Shown one piece after another: positions 1-59,164 of a stretch of DNA of 64,000 nt (positions are counted from its first letter, which is position 1; every line of letters starts with the position of its first letter). The notes beneath the pieces are model-generated. The model made no database searches, was not told the origin of the DNA, and saw only the letters and a list, made by a program, of their open reading frames with translations. Origin of the DNA: Acidobacteriota bacterium (lineage in GTDB: Bacteria; Acidobacteriota; Terriglobia; Terriglobales; Acidobacteriaceae); assembly GCA_003225555.1 (NCBI GenBank), contig QIAM01000006.1:1-64000 (forward strand), read 5' to 3'. The position numbers and the translations under genes were made by a program.

Positions 1-2
1 AG

Positions 3-323
3 CGCCTGAGTCGCCAGGGCGTGAAGGGATTGAAGGCCAAGACCGGCCTCAAGGCCGGCGGCCAGAGCTTCAATCACAATCAGTCCTTGATCCGTGCGAC
101 GGGCCTGAAGGTCAAGAGCAACGTGAAGGCAGGGGGGCTATCCACCAACCACAACCAGACCTCGGTCCGCGGTTCGAGCCTGAAGGTCAAGAGCAACGTG
201 AAGGCGGGCGGTCAGACCTTTAACCACAATCAGTCCACGATTTCTGGCAGGGGTCTCAAGGTGAAGAGCAATGTGAAAGCAGGGGGGGAAAGCATCAATC
301 ACAACCAAACTATGGTGCGCTAG
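3..323 (+). CDS. VKAGG-NHNQ repeat peptide precursor, copy 1 (5' end probably outside window)
   Basis: The protein consists almost only of a repeat with an exact 25-residue period. Each unit has a basic stretch ending in VKAGG ([11 protein letters not shown]), three variable residues (QSF, LST, QTF, ESI), the invariant tetrapeptide NHNQ, and about seven linking residues. Four units are seen. It has hardly any acidic residues, so it is strongly cationic. A GTG at 21 could start it, but no convincing ribosome binding site precedes it and the frame is open to base 3, so the gene may begin upstream. I recognise no named family. The company of a C39-peptidase ABC exporter and a second repeat gene at 7452 suggests a secreted, GG-processed peptide precursor. 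That role is inference. Confidence 0.75.
21..320 (+). repeat. In-frame 75-bp tandem repeat, array 1
   Basis: Four tandem units of about 75 bases, in frame with the coding sequence. The segment coding for the [10 protein letters not shown] part is best conserved at DNA level and the three codons before NHNQ vary most. The unit length equals that of the array at 7452-7931, so both arrays share one design. Confidence 0.75.
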
Positions 324-427
324 GCATGTGTATCCAACACGACGTTCGGACCGACCTCAGGCTGCGTGCTGCCCAGTGCACCCGCTCCCAGATCGGTCTT
401 CACCTCTTTAAAAGAAGAGAAACGGCA

Positions 428-475
428 ATGAACGCACGAACCGGACAGGGCAACGCCGGTCTACCCATTCCTTAG
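428..475 (+). other. Possible 15-codon ORF in the 217-base gap before the sigma factor
   Basis: An ATG at 428 opens a 15-codon frame ending at TAG 473-475. The purine-rich AAAAGAAGAG lies about 8 bases upstream and could act as a ribosome binding site. It might be a leader peptide or chance. Nothing else recognisable lies between 324 and 540. Confidence 0.15.
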
Positions 476-540
476 AGGTATATACTTGGGCTGTTTTTGC
501 AGGATTTGTCTCGTGGCCGTCAAGGCTGAGGGCAAAAGCC

Positions 541-1143
541 ATGGAACCGGCGCCGACTGACGTGACGCTCTTGCTGAAGCAGCTCAGCGCGGGAGACCAC
601 GATGCGGTGGACCAACTTGTCCCCGTACTTTACAACGAACTCCGCAGGCTGGCCGCCTACTACCTTCGGCAAGAGCGCAGCAACCATACTTTGCAGGCGA
701 CCGCGCTGGTACACGAGGCTTACCTCCGCTTGGTCGATCAGCGCGCCGTCGAATGGAAGAATCGAAGTCACTTTTTTGGTGTAGCCGCTCAGGTAATGCG
801 TCGGATTCTGTTGGACTATGCCCGCAGCCATCAGGCGGTCAAGCGTGGCGGACCGTCGCCCAAAATTTCCTTGGACGATGCCATGGTCTACGGCGAAGAC
901 CAGACGGGACAGCTGGTTGCTCTGGACGAGCTGCTGACCCGGCTGTCGTCCATGGATCCGCAGCAAGGGCGAATTGTGGAGCTGCGTTTCTTTGGAGGGA
1001 TGTCAGTGGAAGAAACGGCAGAACTCTTGGGTATCTCTCCCAGAACTGTCAAGCGTGACTGGGCCATGGCAAAGTCATGGTTATCGCGCGAGCTACGCAA
1101 AGCAAGCCGTGAGGAAGCTGCGGGGAATCAATCGCCCATTTGA
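541..1143 (+). CDS. ECF-type RNA polymerase sigma factor
   Basis: 200 residues with the two-region layout of ECF sigma factors. Region 2 (about residues 10-95) contains ALVHEAYLRLVDQ and FFGVAAQVMRRILLDYAR. Region 4 (about 130-185) contains ELRFFGGMSVEETAELLGIS followed by RTVKRDWAMAKSWL, a helix-turn-helix for the -35 element. The style matches the TIGR02999-type sigma factors common in Acidobacteria and Planctomycetes. It sits directly between the first repeat-peptide gene and the exporter genes. No anti-sigma gene is adjacent, so control would have to come from expression level or a distant partner. That it drives the repeat-peptide and export genes is inference from position. Confidence 0.9.
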   Translation: MEPAPTDVTLLLKQLSAGDHDAVDQLVPVLYNELRRLAAYYLRQERSNHTLQATALVHEAYLRLVDQRAVEWKNRSHFFGVAAQVMRRILLDYARSHQAVKRGGPSPKISLDDAMVYGEDQTGQLVALDELLTRLSSMDPQQGRIVELRFFGGMSVEETAELLGISPRTVKRDWAMAKSWLSRELRKASREEAAGNQSPI

Positions 1144-1186
1144 CGGCACAGTCGCGTAAGGCACAAAAAAAAGAGGATGGTGATGC

Positions 1187-2392
1187 ATGCTGTCTTCATT
1201 TTCTCGCTCGATGCGCTCGCTGGAGGCCGACAGTCCTCGGCGTCCGGTCTTGGCTCTCCTTTTCGCCACTACCCTTATATTGGCCTGGACGGCGTGGCTG
1301 TTTTTAGCGCGCGTAGCGGTCTACGAAGTTAGCGACAGGGCCGATCTGCAAGTGGATCGCGCCGCCCACCCCATCGAAGCGCAGTTCACCGGCCGTGTCG
1401 TTAGCAGTTACATGGTGCTAGACCGCGAGGTGAAATCGCGCGAGGTACTGGTGGAACTCGACGCTGATGCACAGCAACTGCAACTCAAAGAAGAACGGGT
1501 CCGGTCCACGGCCTTAGCCCCACAGATTGGCGCCTTGCAAAGTCAGATTCAGGCAGAAGAGACCGCCTGGCAACAGGAGCGGCAGGCGGCACCGGTAGCG
1601 CTGGAAGAGTCGAGTGCACGAGTAAAAGAAGCCGATGCCGGTGCGCGCCTGGCAGAGGAAGAGGCCAAGCGCCAGGATCAACTGTTCGCTTCCGGAGTGG
1701 TTTCGGAGGTCGATTTACATCGAGCGCGCAGTGCTGCACAGGAGCGGCGCGCAGCAGCGGACAGCCTTCGACTTGGCGTCAGCCGCTTAGAACGACAGCA
1801 GCTAACCCAGGACAGTGAGCGGCAAGCACATGTCCAGGAACTGAAGACCCAACTGGTTCAGCTCAAGGGACAGCGAGCGACGGCGGGTGCGGAAATAGAG
1901 CGGCTTCAGGGAGAGGTCAGCCGACGAAGCATCCGGGCGCCCGTGGACGGGAGACTGGGCGAGGTAGCCAATCTCAGAGTCGGGTCCGTGGTCCGTGAGG
2001 GAGAGAAGCTGGGTGCAGTTGTTCCGACCGGAAATCTCCGCATCGTTGCAAATTTTCTTCCACCAGACGCGCTGGGGCGCATTCGGCCCGGGCAGCACGC
2101 GCGCATGCGTTTGCAAGGTTTTCCATGGGTGCAATACGGCAGTCTTTCGGCGACCGTAACCAGCCTGGCGAATGAAGTCCGCGACGGGCGAATCCGAGTC
2201 GAACTCACAGTTGATAGCAACTCCGGTTCTCACATTCCCCTTCAACATGGTTTGCCAGGAACGGTCGAGGTCAAAGTAGAAGAGACCTCACCCGCGGCAC
2301 TGGTGCTGCGTACGGCGGGACGACTCTTAGCCTCGCCGCGCTCTACTTCCGATTCGTCCCGGCCAGCGGCGGAGAGCCATGAAGGTTCCTGA
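1187..2392 (+). CDS. HlyD-family periplasmic adaptor of the peptide exporter
   Basis: 401 residues. A short cytoplasmic N-terminus precedes one membrane segment at about residues 20-42 (LALLFATTLILAWTAWLFLA). A lipoyl-like half domain, a long Gln/Glu/Arg-rich coiled coil at about 95-240, the second lipoyl half (RAPVDGRLGEVANLRVGSVV) and a beta-barrel region follow. This is the architecture of adaptors that bridge inner-membrane ABC exporters and an outer-membrane channel. AAAGAGGATGG lies just before the ATG. It overlaps the C39 transporter by 14 bases, so the two are translationally coupled. No TolC-like gene is in the cassette, so the outer-membrane partner must be encoded elsewhere. Confidence 0.88.
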   Translation: MLSSFSRSMRSLEADSPRRPVLALLFATTLILAWTAWLFLARVAVYEVSDRADLQVDRAAHPIEAQFTGRVVSSYMVLDREVKSREVLVELDADAQQLQLKEERVRSTALAPQIGALQSQIQAEETAWQQERQAAPVALEESSARVKEADAGARLAEEEAKRQDQLFASGVVSEVDLHRARSAAQERRAAADSLRLGVSRLERQQLTQDSERQAHVQELKTQLVQLKGQRATAGAEIERLQGEVSRRSIRAPVDGRLGEVANLRVGSVVREGEKLGAVVPTGNLRIVANFLPPDALGRIRPGQHARMRLQGFPWVQYGSLSATVTSLANEVRDGRIRVELTVDSNSGSHIPLQHGLPGTVEVKVEETSPAALVLRTAGRLLASPRSTSDSSRPAAESHEGS

Positions 2393-5111
2393 CCGGCATC
2401 CCCGTCTGATCGTTCCTGAAGTTGTGCAGACATCCGCCATGGACTGTGGTCCGGCCTCGCTGAAGTGTGTGCTCGAGGGCTTCGGCATTCCCGTGAGCTA
2501 TGGACGGCTGCGTGAGTCCTGCCAGACCGACGTTGACGGCACCTCGATTGACACAGTCGAGGAAGTCGCTATGCAACTCGGATTGGACGCGGAGCAGATC
2601 ATGCTGCCGGTCGATTACTTGCTGTCGCGAGAAGCAGGGGCTTTGCCGGCAATCGTTGTGGTCCGATTGCCGAACGGTGTCACCCACTTTGTGGTGGTCT
2701 GGCGGCGACTCGGGCCTTTTGTTCAGGTCATGGATCCCGCCACCGGGCGGCGCTGGCCGACCCACGAGCAGTTTCTCTCCAGCCTCTACATTCATGTCTT
2801 ACCTGTGCAGGCTGCGACTTGGCTTCAGTGGGCTCGATCGGACCAGTTCATCCACCCGCTTCGCCGCAAACTGAACGCTCTGGGGCTGAGCCGACGGTCC
2901 TGTGCCGACATGCTGGGCTCGGCGCTGAAAGCAGAAAGTTGGTGCCCACTCGCGGCCCTAGAGGCGTCCACCCGCACGGTGGAAGAGATGGTTTGCTCCG
3001 GTGGGCTTCCGCGCGGCAAGGAAGCTGCGCGCGTCCTCGGGCACCTGTTCGAGAAAGGTCGCCAGAACATAACGGAAGGAATCAAAGCGATCCCTTCCCA
3101 CTACTGGTCAGTTCGTAATGCGCCGGCCGGGCCAAACGGCGAAGAGCAAGTTCTTCTCCAAGGCGCGGTGCTAGTACATATGCGTGGACGACTATCCACA
3201 GCGCAACTTGATGCGCCATCCGGAGCTCCTCGGAAAACGATTGGATCCCCACTTTCACCCGAGCTGGTTGCTGCTCTAGAAGAACCGCCCAGCCGACCGG
3301 GGCGCGAGTTGTTGCGACTTCTGCGCGTCGATGGTGCAGTTTCTCCGATAGTCCTCGGTTCTGCACTCTTTCTCGCCGCCGCTGGGGTAATGGTGGAGGC
3401 GGTACTTTTCCGCAGTCTTCTTGGCATGGGCCGGGAACTTGGTCTGTCGGGCCAGCGCCTCGGCGCGATGGCTGCACTTGTGGGTTTTTTGGCAGGTTTA
3501 CTCCTCCTCGAGTTTCCAATCGCTGCGGGTTTATTAGGGATGGGCCGTCATCTCGAGTCCAGGCTACGCATTGCCTTTCTGCAAAAGATCCCGCGACTCG
3601 GCGATCGCTACTTCCACAGCCGCCTCAATTCGGACATGGCGGAGCGTAGCCACCTCATTCATCGAGTCCGGCTTCTTCCCCAACTCGGTGGAGAGCTCCT
3701 TCGCGGCAGCTTCGAGTTAATACTGACCGCGGCGGCAATCATCTGGCTTGATCCTGGTACCGCTCCGATCGCGATACTCGCGGCTGTATTCGCGCTCGCT
3801 TTGCCATTGTTGGCGCAGCCCCTACTCGCCGAGCGCGACTTGCGGCTGCGCAGCCACGTCGGCGCCCTAAGCCGCTTCTATCTCGACGCGTTCCTCGGAC
3901 TTGTGCCGGTTCGCACTCATGGTGCGGAGCGGGCCATGCGCCGGGAACACGAGGGTTTGCTGATGGAGTGGGGTCGCGCCGGATTAGGACTGCAACGCGC
4001 GGTGGTCTGGATCGAGGGGCTTCAATTCCTCGCCGGCTTTGCTCTCGCAGCCTGGTTGTTGCTGAACCATGTTGGGCGCTTCGGCGACTCGGGCGGCACA
4101 CTCCTGCTGGTGTATTGGGCGCTCAGCTTGCCGGTGCTGGGTCAAGAGGTGGCAATCATCGCCTGGCAGTACCCGGCGCATCGCAATGTGACTCTCCGCC
4201 TGCTGGAGCCGATGGGAGCAATAGAGGACATGGAAGTGGATCAGCCGCGGGACACTCAGCAATCGGCGCAGCCTGTCGTGCCGGCCAGATCAAGCCGTGC
4301 AATGTCCCTATCGTTCGAGAATGTGAGCGTGCGAGTTGCAGGACATACGATTCTTCGTGACATCGATCTGAAAGTTGAAGCGGGTGATCACGTGGCCGTC
4401 GTCGGCGTATCGGGTGCCGGCAAATCCAGCCTGGTCGGCGTTCTCCTGGGGTGGCATCGGCCAGCAGGAGGAAATGTATTGGTAGACGGGCTGACCTTAG
4501 ACGGTGCTCGCCTGGAGAAGCTACGACAGGAAACCGCCTGGGTCGAACCCGCTGTGCACCTGTGGAACCGTTCCTTGTTTGACAATCTCCGATACGGTGC
4601 TCCTGCGGATGCCGTGCCCTCCGGCATGCTGCTTGAGCAATCCAACCTCCGGGAACTTCTGGCAAAGCTGCCTGAGGGATTACAGACGAAACTAGGAGAG
4701 GGAGGAGCGCTGGTTTCCGGCGGCGAGGGCCAGCGGGTTCGTCTGGCGCGCGCCATGCTGAAGCCAGATGTGCGGCTCGCCATCCTCGACGAGCCCTTCC
4801 GCGGACTCGATCGCCGGCAACGGCGGGATCTATTAACTTGCGCTCGCAAGCACTGGCAGGAAGTCACCTTGCTCTGCATCACGCATGATGTGAGCGAGAC
4901 GCTGGCCTTTCCGCGTGTGCTCGTCATGGAGAAAGGCCGGATTGTTGAGAGCGGTTTGCCCGCTCAACTCGCGAGCGTGGCAGGCTCGCGATATCGAACT
5001 ATGCTCGAAGCGGAAGGATCTGTTCGCAAGGACTTATGGTCGAGTTCCGACTGGCGTCATTTGCGGCTTGAGGAAGGCCGATTGACAGAAACTGCGATGA
5101 GAGGGTCGTAG
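2379..5111 (+). CDS. Peptidase-containing ABC transporter (C39 double-glycine protease, permease, ATPase)
   Basis: 910 residues. The N-terminal C39 domain (about 10-150) has Q17 and C23 in QTSAMDCGPAS, H103 in GVTHFVVVW and D119 in VMDPATG, so the catalytic set looks intact. A stretch of about 170 residues (150-320) that I cannot assign follows. The membrane domain spans about 320-620. The ATPase has Walker A GVSGAGKSS (about 674), signature VSGGEGQ (about 777), Walker B LAILDEP (about 800) and H-loop ITHD (about 833). Enzymes of this kind cut leader peptides after GG and export the product. The HlyD, C39-ABC, ABC order resembles the NHLM-type bacteriocin export trio. It is longer than the usual ~700-720 residues because of the extra middle region. 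Confidence 0.92.
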   Translation: MKVPDRHPRLIVPEVVQTSAMDCGPASLKCVLEGFGIPVSYGRLRESCQTDVDGTSIDTVEEVAMQLGLDAEQIMLPVDYLLSREAGALPAIVVVRLPNGVTHFVVVWRRLGPFVQVMDPATGRRWPTHEQFLSSLYIHVLPVQAATWLQWARSDQFIHPLRRKLNALGLSRRSCADMLGSALKAESWCPLAALEASTRTVEEMVCSGGLPRGKEAARVLGHLFEKGRQNITEGIKAIPSHYWSVRNAPAGPNGEEQVLLQGAVLVHMRGRLSTAQLDAPSGAPRKTIGSPLSPELVAALEEPPSRPGRELLRLLRVDGAVSPIVLGSALFLAAAGVMVEAVLFRSLLGMGRELGLSGQRLGAMAALVGFLAGLLLLEFPIAAGLLGMGRHLESRLRIAFLQKIPRLGDRYFHSRLNSDMAERSHLIHRVRLLPQLGGELLRGSFELILTAAAIIWLDPGTAPIAILAAVFALALPLLAQPLLAERDLRLRSHVGALSRFYLDAFLGLVPVRTHGAERAMRREHEGLLMEWGRAGLGLQRAVVWIEGLQFLAGFALAAWLLLNHVGRFGDSGGTLLLVYWALSLPVLGQEVAIIAWQYPAHRNVTLRLLEPMGAIEDMEVDQPRDTQQSAQPVVPARSSRAMSLSFENVSVRVAGHTILRDIDLKVEAGDHVAVVGVSGAGKSSLVGVLLGWHRPAGGNVLVDGLTLDGARLEKLRQETAWVEPAVHLWNRSLFDNLRYGAPADAVPSGMLLEQSNLRELLAKLPEGLQTKLGEGGALVSGGEGQRVRLARAMLKPDVRLAILDEPFRGLDRRQRRDLLTCARKHWQEVTLLCITHDVSETLAFPRVLVMEKGRIVESGLPAQLASVAGSRYRTMLEAEGSVRKDLWSSSDWRHLRLEEGRLTETAMRGS

Positions 5112-5112
5112 C

Positions 5113-7242
5113 ATGACGGACCTCGCCACGCTTGCATGGACTACCGCTGAGCTGGGCACCGCCATCGAAGCTTTGGCCCGCAAGTGCGGACTCGCGCCCC
5201 GTCCGGTGCAAGTTGCAGCAGCTCCGGCAGCGATCTTGCAAAATAGTGACGCTCTTAGTCAGTGGATTCAGGCAGCAGCCGAGTGGTTAGGGGTGGACGC
5301 CGAACCGCTGGCCATGCCCTATCACGCGGTCGATCAATTTGTACGCGGCGCCGGTCCCGCTTTGATACGCCTGCCGGACCAAGAACCTGCAAGCTTCTTG
5401 CTATTGATCGGGAAGACCCGCGGCACAGTCTCGATCCTGTCTCGTGATTTGAGCATAGAGAAGGTGCGGGCTGAGGTGATCCGCGATACGCTGTGTTGTT
5501 CTCTGGAAGCCCCGTTGGCACCAGAAATGGATCGGCTACTCGAAGTCACAGGCATCAGCCCTCGTAGGCAGAAGATGGTACGGGCAGCCATGATGCACGA
5601 GCGGCTACGCGACCGGCAGGTCGGCGATGGTTGGCTATTGCGTCTTCCTCCAGGCGGCAGCTTCTGGCTTCAGTTACGCCATGCGCGTTTGCCGCAACGC
5701 CTTCTGCTGCTGGCAGGCATGCACACGGCCGAGTACGTCCTGTGGATTCTTTCCTGGTGGTTGATCGGGCGAGCCGCGCTGGAAGGCAGATTTGACCACG
5801 GCTGGCTGTTGGGCTGGGGCTTACTTCTCCTCACCCTGGTCCCGTTCTTACTCCTTACCACATGGCTGCAAGGCGTGCTCGCCATTGGCGGCGGGGTGCT
5901 GCTCAAGCAGCGCCTGCTCTATGGCGCCCTCCGTCTTCAGCCAGAAGAGATTCGCCGGCAAGGTGTGGGCCAATTCCTCGGGCGCGTGATTGAGTCGGAG
6001 GCGGTGGAGTCTATGGCTTTGAGCGGCGGTTTCCTCGGCCTGGTTGCTGCCGTCGAGTTGGTAATCTCAGCGATTATCCTCGGCGTGGGTGCGGGAAGTG
6101 TGTTGCATGTGTTTCTGCTGCTGGGATGGATCGTAGTCACCTTGGTTCTCAGTTGGCGCTACTTCGAGCGCCGTCGGCAATGGACGAACGCACGCTTGCA
6201 GATGACCCATGATCTCGTGGAGCGCATGGTGGGCCACCGCACTCGGCTGGTTCAGGAGCCACGGGAGCACTGGCATGACGGAGAAGACCAGGAACTGGAG
6301 CGTTACCAGGAAATTTCCACGAAGATGGACCGTGCGGCGGCGCGGCTGACGGCGTTTTCGCCGCGGGGGTGGCTGCTGCTGGGTATCTCGGGAGTGACTT
6401 ACACCTTCGTCACTACCGAAACCGCGCCCGTCACGCTGGCCATCACGCTGGGAGGAATCCTGCTTGCCTATCGTGCTCTGCGACGGTTGGCAGCCGGCCT
6501 GTGGAACATTTCCGACGCGGCCATCTCCTGGCAACAGGTCGCACAGCTCTTCCAAGCGGCGGCCCGTCCGCAAGCGCTGGCTCCGCCAATCTTTGGGTTC
6601 TCACCTGAGTCGCTTCCGTCGGATGGCAATCGCAAGACCGTGGAAGCGCACGATCTGGTCTTCCACTACCAAGGCCGTGGGGAAGCCGTGCTCCACGGCT
6701 GTACCTTGTCGGTCCAGTTGGGTGAACGGTTGCTGCTGGAAGGCGCGTCTGGTTGTGGCAAGTCCACTTTCGCGTCGCTGCTCAGTGGGATGCGGCTGCC
6801 GAACTCGGGATTGCTTTTGCTTAACGGATTGGACCGCAATACGCTCGGCGAAGATGGTTGGCGGCATCGCATCGTCTCTGCGCCTCAGTTCCACGAGAAT
6901 CATGTCCTCACTGAAAGTTTTGCGTTCAACCTGCTAATGGGACGGCGTTGGCCACCTCGGCAAGAAGACTTGCAGGAAGCCGAAGTCGTGTGCCGAGAAC
7001 TAGGTCTGGGAGAGCTGCTTGACCGTATGCCTGCGGGACTGCTGCAGATGGTGGGAGAAACCGGCTGGCAGCTCTCCCACGGAGAGCGCAGCCGCCTTTA
7101 TATCGCGCGCGCCCTGCTCCAGGGCTCGGAGATGATGATCTTCGACGAGAGTTTCGCCGCACTGGACCCTGAAACTCTGCGGCAATCATTGAGCTGTGTC
7201 CTGCGACGAGCCCCCACACTCATGGTCATCGCACATCCCTAA
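5113..7242 (+). CDS. Second ABC transporter (permease plus ATPase), no peptidase domain
   Basis: 709 residues, starting one base after the stop of the C39 transporter. The N-terminal ~190 residues replace the peptidase domain and lack the Q-C-H-D set. Membrane helices occupy about 195-470. The ATPase has Walker A GASGCGKST (about 544), signature LSHGERS (about 653, with His at the third position of the usual LSGGQ), Walker B MMIFDES (about 674) and H-loop IAHP (about 705). The protein stops four residues after the H-loop histidine region, which is very early, since family members usually continue 25-40 residues. It corresponds in position to the second ABC protein of NHLM-type systems. It may pair with the C39 protein as a heterodimer (inference). 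Confidence 0.88.
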   Translation: MTDLATLAWTTAELGTAIEALARKCGLAPRPVQVAAAPAAILQNSDALSQWIQAAAEWLGVDAEPLAMPYHAVDQFVRGAGPALIRLPDQEPASFLLLIGKTRGTVSILSRDLSIEKVRAEVIRDTLCCSLEAPLAPEMDRLLEVTGISPRRQKMVRAAMMHERLRDRQVGDGWLLRLPPGGSFWLQLRHARLPQRLLLLAGMHTAEYVLWILSWWLIGRAALEGRFDHGWLLGWGLLLLTLVPFLLLTTWLQGVLAIGGGVLLKQRLLYGALRLQPEEIRRQGVGQFLGRVIESEAVESMALSGGFLGLVAAVELVISAIILGVGAGSVLHVFLLLGWIVVTLVLSWRYFERRRQWTNARLQMTHDLVERMVGHRTRLVQEPREHWHDGEDQELERYQEISTKMDRAAARLTAFSPRGWLLLGISGVTYTFVTTETAPVTLAITLGGILLAYRALRRLAAGLWNISDAAISWQQVAQLFQAAARPQALAPPIFGFSPESLPSDGNRKTVEAHDLVFHYQGRGEAVLHGCTLSVQLGERLLLEGASGCGKSTFASLLSGMRLPNSGLLLLNGLDRNTLGEDGWRHRIVSAPQFHENHVLTESFAFNLLMGRRWPPRQEDLQEAEVVCRELGLGELLDRMPAGLLQMVGETGWQLSHGERSRLYIARALLQGSEMMIFDESFAALDPETLRQSLSCVLRRAPTLMVIAHP

Positions 7243-7434
7243 GTACCGCAAGATCAAGCGAGTAGCGTGTCTTTCCGACAGTCTTCGAGTTTAGTGGATC
7301 GCGGCGTTTCCGGAAGCAAGGGTAACGGCTCTCCGAATCGACGTCCGGCCTGCGAAATTTTCTCCTGCCCGGTGGCCCCGTTTCCTAGTCACTCCCGCGT
7401 TATAAACAGAGGTCGAAAGCAAGCCTCAAATTGG

Positions 7435-7446
7435 AAGGAAGGAGAA
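7435..7446 (+). promoter_or_regulatory. Strong ribosome binding site that fixes the start of repeat precursor 2
   Basis: AAGGAAGGAGAA lies 5-8 bases before the ATG at 7452. It supports that ATG over the TTG at 7431, so the precursor starts directly with a half unit (MQVKTNVKAGG) and has no long separate leader. The rest of the 209-base gap 7243-7434 shows nothing I can assign. Confidence 0.7.
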
Positions 7447-7451
7447 CAGTC

Positions 7452-7920
7452 ATGCAGGTCAAAACGAACGTCAAGGCGGGCGGGCACCAATTGAATCACA
7501 ACCAGACCCTGGTCTGTGCCAGGGGGCTCAAAGTAAAGACGAACGTCAAGGCCGGCGGGCACCAAATGAATCACAACCAGACCCTGGTCTGTGCCAGGGA
7601 GCTCAAAGTAAAGACGAACGTCAAGGCCGGCGGGCACCAGTACAACCACAACCAGGCCCTCGTCCGCGAGCGGGCAAAGAGCCTGAGGGTGAAAACGAGC
7701 GTAAAGGCCGGGATCGGTTCGTACAATTGGGGAAATACCCAGCCTAACCACAATCAGATCCTAGTCCGCGCCAAGGGTTTGAAGGTAAAGACGAACCTGA
7801 AGGCAGGCGGGATTACAAACAACCACAACCAAACTCTCGTCAGTACCAAGGTCTTGAAGGTGAAGACGAATGTGAAGGCCGGCGGACACCAGGTGAACCA
7901 AAACCAGACGCTGCTTCGGG
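7452..7920 (+). repeat. In-frame 75-bp tandem repeat, array 2
   Basis: About six in-frame units with a 75-base basic period; one unit is lengthened by an insertion at about 7710-7745. The first two units are nearly identical in DNA (they share AATCACAACCAGACCCTGG and then CTCAAAGTAAAGACGAACG), which points to recent duplication. Later units are diverged. Confidence 0.8.
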
Positions 7921-7931
7921 GGACTAGGTAA
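7452..7931 (+). CDS. VKAGG-NHNQ repeat peptide precursor, copy 2
   Basis: 159 residues from the ATG chosen by the ribosome binding site at 7435-7446. It starts with MQVKTNVKAGG and then carries six units of the 25-residue repeat: (GG)-xxx-NHNQ-TLVxAR-xLKVKTNVKA. Units 1 and 2 are almost identical and contain LVCAR, the only cysteines. The fourth junction reads VKAGI instead of VKAGG and is followed by an insertion ending in NTQP before NHNQ. The last unit has NQNQ. The protein is very basic. Cleavage after each GG by the neighbouring C39 peptidase would release peptides of about 25 residues. This polyprotein idea is inference; the repeat itself is seen directly. I recognise no named family. 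Confidence 0.85.
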   Translation: MQVKTNVKAGGHQLNHNQTLVCARGLKVKTNVKAGGHQMNHNQTLVCARELKVKTNVKAGGHQYNHNQALVRERAKSLRVKTSVKAGIGSYNWGNTQPNHNQILVRAKGLKVKTNLKAGGITNNHNQTLVSTKVLKVKTNVKAGGHQVNQNQTLLRGTR

Positions 7932-8110
7932 TTGATAAAGCGAAGAACTCGCAAGTGGAAGGGGTGGACTGAGGCAGAAGGCTGCAACCACGGCCTTGAG
8001 CTCTGACTACACTCGAGTAATTGAAGCTGATGCCGCGCGCGCCTCGATCCACCCGGCTGGACTAAATGCTCCGCGGCGCCTTGCAAGCGCCTCAAATCGA
8101 AGAGAGAATC

Positions 8111-9259
8111 ATGCCAGTGAGCGCCAAGTCGTATCGCGACCCCGTTGATCTAGCCTGCGAGCTTCACGAACGCGCACTTCGCTGCCAGTCCCAGGGTGAT
8201 CAGGAGAAAGCACGCGCGCTCTGCCGCCGCTCGCTAAGGATTCTAAAGAAAAGCCTAGGGCCGAGCCATCCCGACGTCGCCAACGTGACGGACACCCTGG
8301 CTCAAACCTATGAGGCTACAGGAGACTTGGTCACAGCCGAGAGGCTCTGTCGGCGCTCGGTAACCATCCTGGAGAAGGCTAGCCGCCGTACCCGAAACAT
8401 CGTGGTGCGAAAGATGCTGGCGCAGTGTCTAGCGCAGCTCGCGGAAATTTATAGCGAATTGGGTAACTACAAAGAAGCAGAGCCTCGTTTTCGTCGTGCA
8501 CTCAGACTGGCAGCAAGAATCTATCCTAGGACCGCCCCGGAGCTGACCCCGTTTCTCAACAACCTTGCGGTCCTTTACAAGTACATGGGCCGCTTTCCTG
8601 AAGCGAAGCGGCTGTATCGCCGGGGACTCGCAATCAGCGAAAAGGCGCTTGGACCCGATCATCCTGAGGTCGCAACCATTTACCACAATCTGGGAGGACT
8701 GGAACACGCTCGCGGCCGCTTTGCCCGCGGTGAACCCTTTGCCCGGAAATCGGTCGAGATCCGCGAGAAAGCCCTTGGGCCCGATCACCCGAGCGTAGCT
8801 GCAGATGTGGCGGCGCTAGCGGCTCTCCTCGAAAGCCAACAGAAGTACGACGAAGCAGAAAAGCTTTACCGGCGGGCGCTGGTGGTTTTCGAGCGTTCGT
8901 ACGGTCCACACCATTACGAAATCGCGGTCAATCTGAACAACCTGGCCTCGCTGAACTATGGCCGGGGCAACCATAAGGAAGCGGAACGGCTGTACCGCCG
9001 CGCGCTGGCGATGAAGGAAAAGCTCTTCGGGTCCGAGCATCCGGATATTGCCATGACGCTGAACAACCTAGCCGTGCTTTACAAGTCCGAGAACAAGCTG
9101 AAGGCTGCCGCTCCGTTGTACCTGCGAGCACTGACGATTTTTGAGCATGCTCTAGGCTCTAAGCATCCGAATACTATTGTCTGCCGCACGAATTACGCGG
9201 AGTTGGTTGGAGAAATGAAACTTCAGGCCCGGCGCTCCCGGCGGCGGCCTGATAGGTAA
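8111..9259 (+). CDS. TPR protein of the kinesin-light-chain type
   Basis: About 382 residues from the ATG at 8111, preceded by the purine-rich AGAGAGA. An upstream ATG at 8066 is less likely. It is almost entirely 42-residue TPR units of the kinesin-light-chain style, with recurring GPDHPEVA, NLA.LY and EAE.LYRRAL signatures (for example ALGPDHPEVATIYHNLGGL). No signal peptide, catalytic domain or NB-ARC domain is present, so it is probably a cytoplasmic protein-protein interaction scaffold. It lies 180 bases after the second repeat-peptide gene on the same strand. A role in that system is possible but unproven. Confidence 0.85.
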   Translation: MPVSAKSYRDPVDLACELHERALRCQSQGDQEKARALCRRSLRILKKSLGPSHPDVANVTDTLAQTYEATGDLVTAERLCRRSVTILEKASRRTRNIVVRKMLAQCLAQLAEIYSELGNYKEAEPRFRRALRLAARIYPRTAPELTPFLNNLAVLYKYMGRFPEAKRLYRRGLAISEKALGPDHPEVATIYHNLGGLEHARGRFARGEPFARKSVEIREKALGPDHPSVAADVAALAALLESQQKYDEAEKLYRRALVVFERSYGPHHYEIAVNLNNLASLNYGRGNHKEAERLYRRALAMKEKLFGSEHPDIAMTLNNLAVLYKSENKLKAAAPLYLRALTIFEHALGSKHPNTIVCRTNYAELVGEMKLQARRSRRRPDR

Positions 9260-11059: not shown

Positions 11060-13609
11060 TTAACGTTCACCGGTCATGGCTGTACCGAGTTGCGCTGCTA
11101 GATAGGTCGTCGCCTCGTCGGCGGTCTCGACTTCAAGCAAATGTTGACGAAAATCTTCATTCATCAGTTTGCGCGCAAGTGTCGAGAATACCTGCATGTG
11201 GTTGTTGGCTACCTCAGAGTTGCGAAGCGCAAGGAGAACGACCATGCGTACTCGTTCGCCGTCGATTGAATCCCAATTGATGGGCTCCCTGAGTCTCAAG
11301 ACGCATATTGAGTCGGCTGCGACTGCATCCGTCTTGCAGTGGGGAGTCGCGAAACCGTAACCCAAACCGGTGGAATATACCGCCTCACGCGCCCACAACG
11401 CTTCTTCTAGAAGGTGTCGGTCTTCGGTTCGGCTTGCGACATAAAAAGCGTCGACCATCTCCTGGATCACTTCTTCCTTGTTCTTACTTGTGCTTCCCAG
11501 AAGGATCAATTCCCGAGCGAGCAAGGGCTGTGCGGCCTGCAGCGGCTGTTGACCCAGGAGACCATCAACCTCCAAGACCTTTGCAGACGCGATAGACCGC
11601 TCGACCATTACGCCACAGTCGGAGGCATAGAGTCTGGAGACGGTTCTCTTATACTCACGAACTTCGACGGCTGGCACGCTGATCTCACGGAGCCCGAGAC
11701 CCACCAGCAGGGGCAAATTGCGAATGTCGGCGGCCATTTCCCCGCACATTCCAGCCCATTTCCCGGCTAAACGGATCTGGTCAACAATTTGCTTGAGAAA
11801 ACGAAGGAAACTTGGGTGGCGAACGCTGAAAAGCTCGTTGACCTTTGAATTGTTCCGATCCGCGGCAAAGAAATACTGACTCAGATCGTTCGTCCCAATA
11901 CTGAAGAAGTCAACTTCAGAGCAGAGTTGATCGAGAATGAAGGCAACCGACGGAACTTCTACCATGATTCCGACCTTGAGATCAGGCTGGAAAGGCATAC
12001 CGTTCCGAATGAGATGCTGCTTGGCTTGTATGATCGCATCCTTGAACTGAACAATCTCCTCCAGGGATGAGATCATCGGGGCCATGATCTGAACTTGTCC
12101 CAGCGCCGAAGCGCGAAGGATGGCTCGCAGTTGAGATTGCAGCAGTTGGTGATGCTCGGCGTAGATCCGTGCTCCACGGTATCCCAGGAATGGATTCTCT
12201 TCCGGCGGCAGGTTTAAATATGGCACCCTCTTGTCGCCGCCAATATCGATGGTACGAATGACCACTGGCCGTCCGCCCGCCGTGCGCGCGGCTTCAGCGT
12301 AAATGGCGAACTGCTCCTCTTCCGAGGGGGGATATTCGCGGCCCAGAAAAATCATTTCGGTTCGGAACAAGCCGATTCCGTCCGCGCCGTTCTCAAAAGC
12401 TATGACTAGTTCCTCCACGGACGAGGCATTCGCTGCTACGTCTATGCGCTGCCCATCCAATGTGATTGCCGGCTTCTCGGTCTGGCGGGACCACAGTTCT
12501 CTCCTTCGCTGCAAGGTTTGCTGCTCGCGCCCGTAAAACCTCCGCACCGCCGCAAGAGAGTACGAGACCACAAGACCGCGATTTGCATCCACCACCACTT
12601 CGCTTCCAGGGGGGAGCACGAGTCGGGCATTTCTTACGCCCACCAGCGTCGGAATCCCGAGAGACCGAGCCAAAATGGCGGCATGAGACGTCGAACCGGA
12701 ATACTCCAGCACAAGCGCTTTTAGCCATCGACGATCAAGCTCAAGAAGTTGCTGCGGAGCCAGGGTCTCGGCGACAACCACCGAAGGCTCATGCAGTGCA
12801 ACAGGTGCTGATCCGGGGCTCGCGCCGTAGATCTCTTCCAGCAATTGTAGACAAATTTCCTCAATGTCGGAAGATCGCTCACGGACGTACTCATTATCTG
12901 AATGTCTCAGAAGATCGATGAAAAACTCTCCAGTTTCCACTACGGCCTGGCCGGCAGACTTCCCGCGCAAAACTTGTTCTGTCAGTTTCTCGACCAGAAA
13001 GACGTCGCTGGCCATTGCCAAGTCCGCCTGAAGTACTGCCGTTCCGGCAGGGGTGATGGAGTACTTCAGCTTTTCTCCGATGCGGCGGCGCACAGCGGCA
13101 ACTGCATCTTTGATGTGGTCCAATTCCTTCTGGGAATCGGTCTTGTTCGGTGTACTCAGGCTGCTGGGAAGTGTCATCCGGCTTACGATGACAACCTTGC
13201 CGTGAGCGATTCCTCGACTGACCGGAACTCCAAAGCTGCAACTGACCCCGGCCGCCTTGAGAGGGCGGGGGGGAGTATTACTGCGAATCGGCGCAGCGCT
13301 TACTGCTAAAGGAACGTCACAGAGGGGGAGGGCTTCTGCAACAAACTGGCGCAACGCTGCGTGTGCGGAGTGTTCATCCGCGCCGCTTACACGGACGGCA
13401 CATTGATCGCTATATCGAATGTCAGCCGCGATAATCCCCAGCACACTCTTGCCGTTGGCCATCAATCCGTTGCGCAAGTTGGTCAACGTACAATCGGAGG
13501 CGAACTGATTCACCACCTCTGCCAGATGACTGGCAGGTCGGGCATGCAAGCCGCTGGACAGAGGGCAGGAGAATACGAATTGCAGAGATGTGCTTACCTC
13601 TTGCGTCAT
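11060..13609 (-). CDS. Multidomain PTS phosphotransferase: HPr - enzyme I - EIIA(Fru) fusion
   Basis: 849 residues. The N-terminal HPr domain (about 8-100) has the phosphorylated histidine H22 in GLHARPAS and a KSVLGI segment at the regulatory serine site. Enzyme I (about 125-690) has its active H309 in GSTSHAAILA, the PEP-binding part FRTEMIFL and the catalytic cysteine in MCGEMA. The C-terminal fructose-type EIIA domain (about 705-849) has H757 in FATPHCK. The protein would pass phosphate from PEP through HPr to EIIA and then to the separate EIIB and EIIC. It is the last gene of the operon AraC-EIIC-EIIB-this gene, five bases after EIIB. The order of domains differs from the classical E. 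coli FruB (EIIA-FPr). Confidence 0.93.
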   Translation of the reverse strand: MTQEVSTSLQFVFSCPLSSGLHARPASHLAEVVNQFASDCTLTNLRNGLMANGKSVLGIIAADIRYSDQCAVRVSGADEHSAHAALRQFVAEALPLCDVPLAVSAAPIRSNTPPRPLKAAGVSCSFGVPVSRGIAHGKVVIVSRMTLPSSLSTPNKTDSQKELDHIKDAVAAVRRRIGEKLKYSITPAGTAVLQADLAMASDVFLVEKLTEQVLRGKSAGQAVVETGEFFIDLLRHSDNEYVRERSSDIEEICLQLLEEIYGASPGSAPVALHEPSVVVAETLAPQQLLELDRRWLKALVLEYSGSTSHAAILARSLGIPTLVGVRNARLVLPPGSEVVVDANRGLVVSYSLAAVRRFYGREQQTLQRRRELWSRQTEKPAITLDGQRIDVAANASSVEELVIAFENGADGIGLFRTEMIFLGREYPPSEEEQFAIYAEAARTAGGRPVVIRTIDIGGDKRVPYLNLPPEENPFLGYRGARIYAEHHQLLQSQLRAILRASALGQVQIMAPMISSLEEIVQFKDAIIQAKQHLIRNGMPFQPDLKVGIMVEVPSVAFILDQLCSEVDFFSIGTNDLSQYFFAADRNNSKVNELFSVRHPSFLRFLKQIVDQIRLAGKWAGMCGEMAADIRNLPLLVGLGLREISVPAVEVREYKRTVSRLYASDCGVMVERSIASAKVLEVDGLLGQQPLQAAQPLLARELILLGSTSKNKEEVIQEMVDAFYVASRTEDRHLLEEALWAREAVYSTGLGYGFATPHCKTDAVAADSICVLRLREPINWDSIDGERVRMVVLLALRNSEVANNHMQVFSTLARKLMNEDFRQHLLEVETADEATTYLAAQLGTAMTGER

Positions 13610-13614
13610 TCGGT

Positions 13615-13914
13615 TCAGTGTTGGAGCTTAGAAAAAATATTCTCCGGGTTCTTGAGAGCCTCTTGCAGCGGCACCTGAATGACCTTCACACCGTTGAATC
13701 GCTCCCGTTCTTCCACCTCGATATCGACGGCAAAGATGGCAATGTGGGCCTGGCGAATATCATTTTCGGTCAGCCTGTTTTCAATGCCCATCGCCCCCTG
13801 GGTCTCAACCTTGATCTCGTGGCCGAAATTCTTCGCGATCTTCTCCAGTCGCGCAGCGGCCATGTAAGTGTGCGCGATTCCCGTTGGGCACGCGGTTACA
13901 GCGACAATTTTCAT
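13615..13914 (-). CDS. PTS fructose-type EIIB component
   Basis: 99 residues with the EIIB(Fru) signature VTACPTGIAHTYMAA. C9 is the phosphocysteine that receives phosphate from EIIA and passes it to the sugar during transport. The start overlaps the stop of EIIC by four bases (ATGA type), so the two are coupled. In many bacteria EIIB and EIIC are fused; here they are separate. Confidence 0.93.
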   Translation of the reverse strand: MKIVAVTACPTGIAHTYMAAARLEKIAKNFGHEIKVETQGAMGIENRLTENDIRQAHIAIFAVDIEVEERERFNGVKVIQVPLQEALKNPENIFSKLQH

Positions 13915-14954
13915 GCGGCCTCCGTCTTCCTTGCTGCTACTTTGTTGTTCCTGGTTTTCAGCAAGACAACCAGTGACGCAGTGAGGACCGTACCCGCCAG
14001 GATTGCCAACACATAGGCGACTCTGTGATCCACGACTGGCAAGACGATGGGGCCACCGTGCGGCGCGTGGTCTCCTACCTGGGCGGCCATGGCGATGGCG
14101 GACGCCACCGCGGACCCAATTACAATGCTGGGGATTACCCGAATCGGGTCCGACGCCGCGAAGGGAATCGCCCCCTCCGTGATTCCAATCAGTCCCATTG
14201 CGATGGCAGCGAGACCGGCTTCACGCTCTTCATTGCTCCAAAGCCGCTTTCGGATCAGAGTAGCCAACCCCATTCCGAGCGGAGGAGTACAAATGGCGGC
14301 GGCACATGCGCCCATGATTTGGTAGTTTCCTTCGCGGATCATGGCAGCCCCAAAGAAAAACGCAGTCTTGTTTACCGGTCCCCCCATGTCAAAGGCAATC
14401 ATGGCTCCGAGAATCAGCGCGAGCACGATATTGTTCCCTGTGCTCATCGACACCAGACCGCGGCTCGCGTTCTGCATCAGCAACGCGATAGGCACACCCA
14501 GGACTTTTATCATCAGGACGCCGATGAAGGCGCCCGACACAATGGGAATCACCAGGATCGGCATGATGGGCCGAAGATACTTCGAGACCGGCACCTTCTT
14601 AAGACCCTGCACTACATAACCAGCCACCAGACCAGCGAGCATCGCACCCAGAAATCCAGCTTTCACCTGACCCGAGAGATAACCACCGAGAAATCCCGGA
14701 AGCAGCCCGGGCTTGCCAGCAACGGAATACGAGATGTAGCCAGCCAACACCGGCAGCATCAAGGTAAGTGCCGCAGTTCCGATATCCAGAACGAGCCTTA
14801 GCCGTGGTGCTTGCGTAAAATCCGGGCCCGTCGGAGTCATAGGCGCAAAGGCGATCGCTGCCGCGATCAGGATGCCGCCGCAGGCGATGAACGGAATGGC
14901 GAAGGAAACCCCCGTCAGCAGGTGCTGTCTCAAACTCTTGAGCAGCTCAATCAT
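13911..14954 (-). CDS. PTS fructose-type EIIC permease
   Basis: 347 residues, almost entirely membrane helices (for example VLAILAGTVLTASLVVLL near the C-terminus). It carries the conserved fructose-family features GAMIAFDMGGPVNKTAF and GITEGAIPFAASDP. It forms the sugar channel that couples transport to phosphorylation. The neighbouring GH38 alpha-mannosidase suggests mannose or a mannosyl compound rather than fructose, but the sequence does not decide this. The 160 bases upstream (14955-15114) separate it from the AraC gene and could hold its promoter. Confidence 0.92.
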   Translation of the reverse strand: MIELLKSLRQHLLTGVSFAIPFIACGGILIAAAIAFAPMTPTGPDFTQAPRLRLVLDIGTAALTLMLPVLAGYISYSVAGKPGLLPGFLGGYLSGQVKAGFLGAMLAGLVAGYVVQGLKKVPVSKYLRPIMPILVIPIVSGAFIGVLMIKVLGVPIALLMQNASRGLVSMSTGNNIVLALILGAMIAFDMGGPVNKTAFFFGAAMIREGNYQIMGACAAAICTPPLGMGLATLIRKRLWSNEEREAGLAAIAMGLIGITEGAIPFAASDPIRVIPSIVIGSAVASAIAMAAQVGDHAPHGGPIVLPVVDHRVAYVLAILAGTVLTASLVVLLKTRNNKVAARKTEAA

Positions 14955-57194: not shown

Positions 57195-58190
57195 ATGAAA
57201 ATCCTGGTCGCAAGCCATCTGGAACGGTCTGCAATCCGACAATTACAGGAACGCCACGACGTAGTTTGCACATTCGATCAGCCGACAGCAGACCCGTTTT
57301 CGCTAGTCCGTGATCGCGAAGCGTTGGTGTTTCGCAGTGGCGTCGAGATCGCGCGAGCGCTCATGGAATGTGCTCCGCATCTAAAGCTCCTGGTGCGTGC
57401 CGGATGCGGCTTGGACAATCTAGATTGTGAATACGTTCGTCAGCGAGGGATCGTCCTACGAAGGATTCCCGAGCCGGCAGCGCAGGCTGTGGCAGAAATG
57501 GCTCTGGCCTTCATGTTTGCGCTTTCCCGGAACATTCGACAGGCCGATGCCATGTTGCGACAAGGTCGCTGGGCAAAAGATACGCTCGAAGGGCATCTGC
57601 TCGCTGGCAAAGTTCTAGGAATCGTGGGAGCTGGTAACATCGGCTCCCGTCTTGGGGCACTCGCGTCCATGATTGGCATGGAGATCATCGGATGTATTGC
57701 CGACTCGACTCCATCCGTTGTTCAAACCCTCCGCGACAAGGGCATCACAGTCGCAGACTTTGATACGGTCCTTGCCACCGCCGATTTCGTTAGCGTTCAC
57801 GTTCCCCTTAGCAAATCGACGGAGAACCTCATCAATGGCAGAGCACTGTCACTGATGAAAGAAGGCAGTTATCTCATTAACCTCGCGCGTGGCGGAGTGG
57901 TGGATGAGACCGCCTTGCATGCTGCTTTGGCTTCTGGCCGGCTTGCCGGCGCGGCGCTGGACGTCCACGAACACGAAGGTCCAGGTCAGATTTCACCGTT
58001 GGCGCGTCTGCCCAACGTTCTGCTCACTCCTCACATTGGTGCGTCAACGGTCGAGACGCAGCAACAGATCGGAGTGCGTGTCGTCGAGATCATCGAAGAA
58101 TTCGTCCAACAACCTATGACAGTGGTGCGCCGCGATGCCGAGGTCAGCCTCGCGAGGCCCGCGCGACGGGATGAAGTGGTGCATGTATGA
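57195..58190 (+). CDS. D-2-hydroxyacid dehydrogenase (phosphoglycerate-dehydrogenase family)
   Basis: 331 residues. Rossmann [18 protein letters not shown]; catalytic set R in [14 protein letters not shown] in ALDVHEHEG and H in LTPHIGAST. The short form lacks the ACT domain of SerA. The stop overlaps the start of the PEP-mutase gene (ATGA), so the two are coupled. Reduction of phosphonopyruvate to phosphonolactate would be a logical role next to PEP mutase, but this is inference; serine or another 2-hydroxyacid is possible. Confidence 0.87.
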
Positions 58191-59164
58191 CCCAAAAAAC
58201 TACTCAATTCAAGCGACTGCTGCATTCCGGGAAGCTGGAATTTTTGATGGAAGCCCATAACGGCCTGACTGCGAAGCTGGTCGAAGAAGCGGGCTTCAAA
58301 GGGATCTGGGCCAGTGGTCTGACTCTGTCCGCAGCCATGGGAGTGCGCGACAGCAATGAAGCCAGTTGGACCCAGGTGCTGGAGGTCGTGGAACTCATGA
58401 GCGATGCCAGCAGCATTCCTATCCTCTTGGATGCTGATACTGGATACGGAAACTTCAACAATGTGCGCCGATTGGTGCGCAAGCTCGAGCAGCGCAATAT
58501 CCCGGCCATGTGCATCGAAGACAAGGTGTTTCCCAAGACGAATTCGTTCCTCAATGAGAAACATCAACTCCTTGCCGACACTGAAGAATTTGCCGGCAAG
58601 ATCAAGGCCGCGAAGGATACGCAACAGGACGGCGACTTCTGTGTCGTCGCCCGAATTGAAGCCTTTATTCTCGGCCTGGGTCTAAACGAAGCTTTGGAAC
58701 GGGCCCATGCTTATTCTTCCGCTGGAGCCGATGCCATCCTCGTCCATAGCAAACTCTCCTCTCCCGACCAGATACTGGCATTTATGAATCAATGGAAAGA
58801 GAACTGTCCTGTAGTCATCGTCCCGACCACCTACTACCAGACGCCGGCCGAGGTCTTCGATCGCGCGGGAGTGAGTATCGTGATCTGGGCTAATCATCTT
58901 TTGCGAGCATCCACCGCCGCGATGCAAAGCGTGGCTTCAATCATCTACCAGACTGGATCAGTCGCGGCTGTCCATGAACACATCGTGCCCGTCAAGGAGA
59001 TCTTTCGCTTACAGAATGCCGCGGAGCTTGAGGCCGCCGAGTTGCGATATCTGCCCGTCCGGACAGGGATTTTGTCACGTTCTGCCTCATCAAGCAGCAA
59101 GCCGGAGGTTTCCTCATATCCGATCTCTGGGGATCTGATACCCCTAAACTCTCGACCTCTATGA
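58187..59164 (+). CDS. aepX: Phosphoenolpyruvate mutase (phosphonate biosynthesis)
   Basis: 325 residues of the isocitrate-lyase/PEP-mutase superfamily. The signature [10 protein letters not shown] (about 111-120) is the one that distinguishes PEP mutase from related lyases. Also present are [20 protein letters not shown] and the metal-binding DADTGYGN (about 82-89). The enzyme forms the C-P bond by rearranging PEP to phosphonopyruvate, the entry to nearly all phosphonates. The reaction is uphill and normally needs a following enzyme such as phosphonopyruvate decarboxylase, which is not in the window; the coupled upstream dehydrogenase could pull it instead. The C-terminal ~25 residues are Ser-rich and variable. 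Confidence 0.9.

Follow-up and report, generated by a model that had tools for sequence, protein, structure and literature searches.

The window analysed here, the first 64 kb of a 267-kb contig (C105; base 1 is the contig start) in the 4.4-Mb genome of an Acidobacteriota bacterium, opens with a locus that is best explained, with a probability of about 0.6, as a peptide-secretion system in which two genes made of tandem repeats would be polyprotein precursors cut by a C39 peptidase at the LxVK[ST]xVKAG[G] of each unit. The C39 peptidase of the adjacent, putatively heterodimeric ABC transporter would recognise this short element in every unit and would cleave the precursor behind each KAG or KAGG as it is exported through the two ABC proteins (ABC1, carrying the C39 domain, and ABC2), the HlyD adaptor and an outer-membrane channel encoded elsewhere. 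Many copies of a basic peptide of 20-25 residues, a variable spacer followed by NHNQ, would be released and might act as a signal or an antagonist. The product may be unmodified, since no tailoring enzyme recurs beside the arrays, and its expression is probably directed by an ECF sigma factor switched on through phosphorylation by a Ser/Thr kinase, in relatives often an adjacent kinase-TPR fusion. The reading is based on the anatomy and conservation of the locus, the co-occurrence of its parts, the residues of the C39 domain, the presence of the motif in RiPP precursors and the phospho-site signature of the sigma factor.

Organization of the locus

All seven parts of the locus, from array 1 to the TPR gene, lie on one strand (Table 1). 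The preliminary description had proposed that a sigma factor, an HlyD adaptor, a C39-ABC transporter and a second ABC transporter are bracketed by two arrays built of one basic 25-residue repeat, and this anatomy stands, with both arrays in frame and LKVKTNVKAGGxxxNHNQTLVRxxG as the unit. The TPR gene is to be added to the array/exporter set, its homologues adjoining arrays or exporter in many loci. HlyD is the transporter's partner in most loci, and the window proteins recur beside arrays in other genomes.

Table 1. Parts of the array and exporter locus in the window
Feature	Coordinates	Strand	Remarks
Array 1, 4 units VK[ST]xVKAGGxxxNHNQ, 106 codons	3..323	+	5' end lost at contig start
ECF sigma factor, Sig-70_X6	541..1143	+	TIGR02999 228.8 bits (cut-off 126); PF07638
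HlyD-type periplasmic adaptor	1187..2392	+	PF13437, 4e-13
C39 peptidase-ABC transporter fusion (ABC1), 910 aa	2379..5111	+	PF03412, 6.8e-19; PF00005, 1.5e-21
Second ABC transporter (ABC2), degenerate C39-like N-terminus	5113..7242	+	PF00005, 1.2e-19; alignment; hhalign
Array 2, 159 aa, 6 units, begins MQVKTNVKAGG	7452..7931	+	
Kinesin-light-chain-type TPR protein	8066..9259	+	PF13374/PF13424; recurs next to arrays and exporter

The array DNA repeats with a period of 75 bp. Searched as degenerate DNA, KAGG-x3-NHNQ has eight matches in the window, all inside the two arrays (0 expected from shuffles), and no array-like sequence was found elsewhere in the genome assembly. Both products are strongly basic (pI 12.0 and net charge +18 for array 1, pI 11.4 and +25 for array 2). 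Array 2 most likely starts at the ATG at 7452 rather than the TTG at 7431; one of its units has a longer spacer (VKAGIGSYNWGNTQPNHNQ) and another reads NQNQ. Among the units, synonymous differences are many and non-synonymous ones few: pN/pS is 0.17 for the VKTNVKAG block and 0.02 for NHNQ (9 units, the picking of which partly conditions on the motif), and about 1 for the triplet between GG and NHNQ, which is free to vary. Since the motif was conserved while the DNA of the units drifted at synonymous sites, this comparison of units makes it most likely that the arrays are translated and selected, and not simply repetitive DNA. Consistent with the earlier remark that no named RiPP class is known to have this repeat, neither Pfam nor NCBIfam has a family for the arrays and no solved structure resembles them by sequence, so that they match no known structural or housekeeping family.

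With the catalytic Gln, Cys, His and Asp all present in the C39 domain of the window transporter, the C39-ABC exporter to which the arrays are linked has its catalytic site intact; Q..MDCG, the catalytic His and MDP are kept in all 21 of the orthologous C39 domains covered. The N-terminus of ABC2, which is without the catalytic Cys and His, can still be aligned to the C39 domain (hhalign E 3.6e-6, probability 87.5%), and the pair thus looks like a heterodimer with a single active peptidase, as judged from these alignments. A comparison with NHLM-type export trios had been drawn; the layout is indeed alike, but none of the three models reaches its curated cut-off (TIGR03794, 37 bits versus 156; TIGR03796, 166 versus 853; TIGR03797, 103 versus 709), and with scores so far below the cut-offs the window trio resembles NHLM in layout without belonging to it.

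Elsewhere in the window, the minus strand at 11060-14954 carries a fused PTS enzyme-like ORF (HPr/EI/EIIA-like, 849 aa) with EIIB- and EIIC-like components, recognised by reading the translations and without relation to the arrays. A long polysaccharide-type cluster at 34885-62699 encodes an epimerase, two DegT aminotransferases, glycosyltransferases, an O-antigen ligase and a MurJ-like flippase; a PEP phosphomutase inside it (58187-59164) hints at a phosphonate-decorated glycan.

The array family and its linkage to a C39 exporter

A degenerate DNA pattern for KAGG-x3-NHNQ, validated on the window, was run over 84,980 species genomes, mostly MAGs with broken contigs, for which maps of neighbouring genes were built on stop-to-stop frames. 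It found 30 stretches; 26 of them seem genuine, and their genes have between 1 and 14 units. L009, L010, L029, L035 and L036 were discarded as chance matches to the pattern. The carriers, soil-dwelling members of several phyla, are Acidobacteriota, two Myxococcota MAGs and one MAG labelled Planctomyces; a single MAG, Umea1_bin-0121, has 16 arrays on 10 contigs. The consensus over 73 units is [G][LMV]x[VI][KR][ST]xV[KR]AGG-xxx-NHNQ-S/T, and the family-wide unit is about 20 residues long (GLxVKSxVKAGGxxxNHNQS), the 25-residue length being local to the window. In most arrays the unit starts right behind the start codon and the gene stops a few residues past NHNQ. No array relatives were found on plasmids, the sole match among viral contigs was a 16-residue fragment, a literal search of open-licence papers for VKAGG/NHNQ gave only noise, and open-licence papers on C39 peptidases, ECF sigma factors, Acidobacteria and multi-core peptides contained no account of the arrays. 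The array family is uncatalogued and sporadic, and occurs mainly in Acidobacteriota and Myxococcota MAGs.

Rather than occurring mostly without C39 exporters, the repeat is accompanied by an orthologue of the C39 transporter in 11 of 12 array genomes, the remaining one being a fragmented MAG with its array on a 3.6-kb contig. In a sample of the phylum, the exporter orthologue is present in 10 of 396 genomes (binomial p about 3e-17 for 11/12 against this background). The layout of a secreted-peptide system, which the preliminary description had recognised, is supported by this co-occurrence of the repeat with C39-ABC and HlyD genes across genomes. No two of the 10 exporter genomes of the sample share a genus or a family, a distribution suggestive of horizontal spread of the exporter.

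A two-unit array profile run over the same 396 genomes gave unambiguous matches solely in exporter genomes (G000 and G545, strong; G392, E 0.003, read as real arrays). Weak matches in G130, G196, G365, G498 and G584 were regarded as chance; G307, also a weak match, has a motif peptide on another contig. Three exporter genomes of the sample carry diverged versions: QHNK replaces NHNQ in G545, five tandem array genes of G392 read KTGLRGG-(spacer)-NHNQRGL, and G484 has acidic 42-residue precursors ending KINTNVKAGG-VxISD. At locus L110 (14-3374), which is on a different contig from the exporter, five array genes in a row have KDPP spacers of varying length ahead of NHNQRGL, and a TPR gene comes after them. 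Small cargo genes often immediately precede hlyD. In L053 (10699-11213), three short ORFs in tandem, MNVKTNIKAGPSTQVKRFVILKSSTAGN and variants of it, stand at intervals of 214 bp just ahead of hlyD, and three short peptides near the exporter in L052 (14233-15186) read [NK]AADLLTA[KR]T[SN]VRAG-x, with a different, helix-like front part.

A candidate processing element

Seventeen exporter loci, nine from Acidobacteriota and eight from Myxococcota, were chosen blind to their cargo. A small ORF with [VILM][KREN][ST]x[VIL][KRH][AG]G is present in 11 of them, while the strict motif is found in none of the 17 reversed loci and nowhere in 92 kb of other natural DNA; the other six loci have no recognisable cargo nearby, which counts against the preferred reading. 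Because Acidobacteriota loci had served to design the regular expression, its matches in 6 of 8 Myxococcota loci are the fairer test. Two of the Myxococcota peptides (L125, 12837-13043; L126, 16687-16869), encoded next to exporters of this family, are graspetide precursors of the microviridin type: they pass the microviridin/marinostatin model NF033738 with 52.8 and 44.8 bits (cut-off 26), and an MvdD-type ATP-grasp gene comes after the precursor of L125. In both, VRTGVKAG or VKTDVKAG lies between a PFFARFLE-type leader and the TMKYPSD core, where removal of the leader must occur. By its place in these precursors, VK[ST]xVKAG is most likely the recognition and cleavage element of the exporter, and its position in true microviridin precursors is the strongest argument for a processing function. 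In cargo with a single unit, the residue after KAG is free to vary (P, R, L, Y, V, A, G), which fits the prime side of a cleavage site. If the motif is a processing element, the arrays would be polyproteins of the form (element + core)n, with a site of their own in each unit. The earlier observation that the arrays lack a long leader would then mean that a short processing motif of its own, VK[ST]xVKAG, is carried by every unit.

Several features count against the motif as a cleavage site. The array motif departs from the usual rule for C39 leaders, a helix with hydrophobic residues at -4, -7 and -12 (PMC10885120): with positions numbered backwards from AGG, it has Lys at -4 and Thr or Ser at -7. 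AG is a non-standard double-glycine ending; the arrays have KAGG and many single-unit relatives KAG-x. The motif might instead be part of the mature product, given that G-L stands ahead of it in many arrays and that, in L073, the GG closing an acidic leader is directly followed by LKINTNVKAGG.

It is possible, though unlikely, that the arrays are exported whole, or trimmed at the first AGG only, to assemble into an extracellular beta-solenoid or amyloid-like surface protein, in which GG and the spacer would be turns and NHNQ an Asn/Gln ladder. The V-K-S-x-V-K pattern is alternating, and single-sequence AlphaFold models give two strands per unit for the array of L028 (pLDDT 79.9, pTM 0.78) and an all-beta fold for the window array (pLDDT 63), with the curli subunit CsgA as the best solved match (E 0.06, probability 0.63), a match that is not significant and comes from a single-sequence model. 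AlphaFold without an alignment tends to regular beta folds on near-perfect repeats. Peptides of 24-55 aa with one unit, two units or the motif only, beside the same exporter, are too short for a solenoid; the spacer ranges from 3 to about 17 residues, and microviridin precursors carry the motif alone. Given models that are unreliable for near-perfect repeats and the many one- and two-unit members, assembly of intact arrays is kept as a minor alternative to per-unit cleavage.

That the same exporter serves microviridin-type graspetides, and that NHNQ is rigidly conserved, would also agree with products that are RiPPs modified on Asn/His/Gln or Ser/Thr by tailoring enzymes encoded elsewhere in the genome. 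This is improbable, as no tailoring enzyme recurs beside the arrays and, in agreement with the preliminary description, no other modification enzyme was seen among the part of the window ORFs that was scanned. With regard to microviridins, no ATP-grasp ligase was found among these proteins, and NF033738 has no match to the window arrays at E up to 1.

Regulation and comparison with known systems

Most Acidobacteriota arrays adjoin an ECF sigma factor of the window's type, often with a Ser/Thr kinase-TPR gene. Region 2.2 of the window sigma factor reads LQATALVHE, without DAED and with Thr at the position of the EcfP phospho-site; DAED is missing and Thr or Ser occupies this position in all 17 sigma factors from array or exporter loci. 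ECF43 sigma factors are activated by Ser/Thr kinases (EcfP/PknT, EcfK/PknS), and PknT phosphorylates EcfP (PMC8999054). In Umea1_bin-0121, with 47 TIGR02999 sigma factors in 11.9 Mb, one lies within 5 kb of 13 of the 16 arrays (chance about 0.04 each), and a Ser/Thr kinase, usually with TPRs, lies alongside several arrays. No kinase homologue was found in the window, where the contig starts 540 bases before the sigma gene. Myxococcota members have array, TPR gene and exporter without a sigma factor of the TIGR02999 type (no match in G616); the sigma factor is thus a lineage-specific controller and not a core part of the system.

These neighbours allow two further proposals. Rather doubtfully, the loci could form a peptide-signalling network, in which array peptides, all exported through a single shared C39 machine, would be sensed by TPR-fused Ser/Thr kinases that phosphorylate the adjacent ECF43-like sigma factors, each sigma/kinase/array module being one channel set apart by its variable triplet. 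Very improbably, the arrays could remain intracellular and serve the neighbouring kinase as multi-site substrates or as decoys, being phosphorylated at the Ser/Thr of VK[ST]xVK and tuning the sigma factor, the link to the exporter being mere co-inheritance: Ser or Thr is invariant at this position (73/73 units), and in Umea1_bin-0121 the kinase and sigma genes are closer to the arrays than the exporter is, but Myxococcota keep motif and exporter without such a sigma factor, motif peptides lie directly upstream of hlyD, and the motif is found in microviridin precursors.

Under the preferred reading of secretion with cleavage in each unit, one array gene would probably yield many secreted peptides. 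The exporter family, present in at least two phyla, carries graspetides as well as an unnamed family of repeat peptides, and VK[ST]xVKAG is a signature by which its cargo can be searched for. With this signature, the rule by which these C39 peptidases cleave can be put to a direct test, and a route opens to the secreted peptides of soil Acidobacteriota. Kinase-activated ECF sigma factors would be linked to peptide export, a combination of which the open-licence papers searched make no mention.

We infer that the arrays are a variant of C39-processed multi-core secreted peptides. Class II microviridins are multi-core, double-glycine precursors accompanied by C39 transporters (PMC13039773), and they resemble the arrays in having several cores and double-glycine motifs per precursor and an often linked C39-ABC exporter, whereas the window arrays have no PFFARFLE leader or TxKYPSD core, no ATP-grasp gene was found near them, and each of their units bears a different, lysine-rich element. 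The NHLM/NHLP trio (TIGR03794, TIGR03796, TIGR03797) shares the set of HlyD adaptor, C39-ABC and second ABC, but the window system is without a nitrile-hydratase or Nif11 leader. PCAT/AMS exporters (ComA, LahT, PCAT1; 4ry2) likewise have the C39 Gln/Cys/His/Asp fused to an ABC exporter, and PCAT1 is among the solved-structure matches; in contrast to them, the window system has VK[ST]xVKAG(G) as the putative substrate motif instead of a helical leader with hydrophobic residues at -4/-7/-12, and a conserved second ABC with a degenerate C39-like domain. Curli CsgA shares a repeat of about 20 residues with two predicted strands, but in the array family no Sec signal was seen, the exporter is of another type, single-unit members occur, and the structural match is not significant. 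The ECF43 sigma factors (PMC8999054) are similar in the missing DAED of region 2.2, the Thr/Ser phospho-site and, in relatives of the window, the nearby kinase gene, whereas the sigma factor described here is linked to peptide arrays and an exporter, the kinase in relatives is often TPR-fused, and no kinase gene was found in the window.
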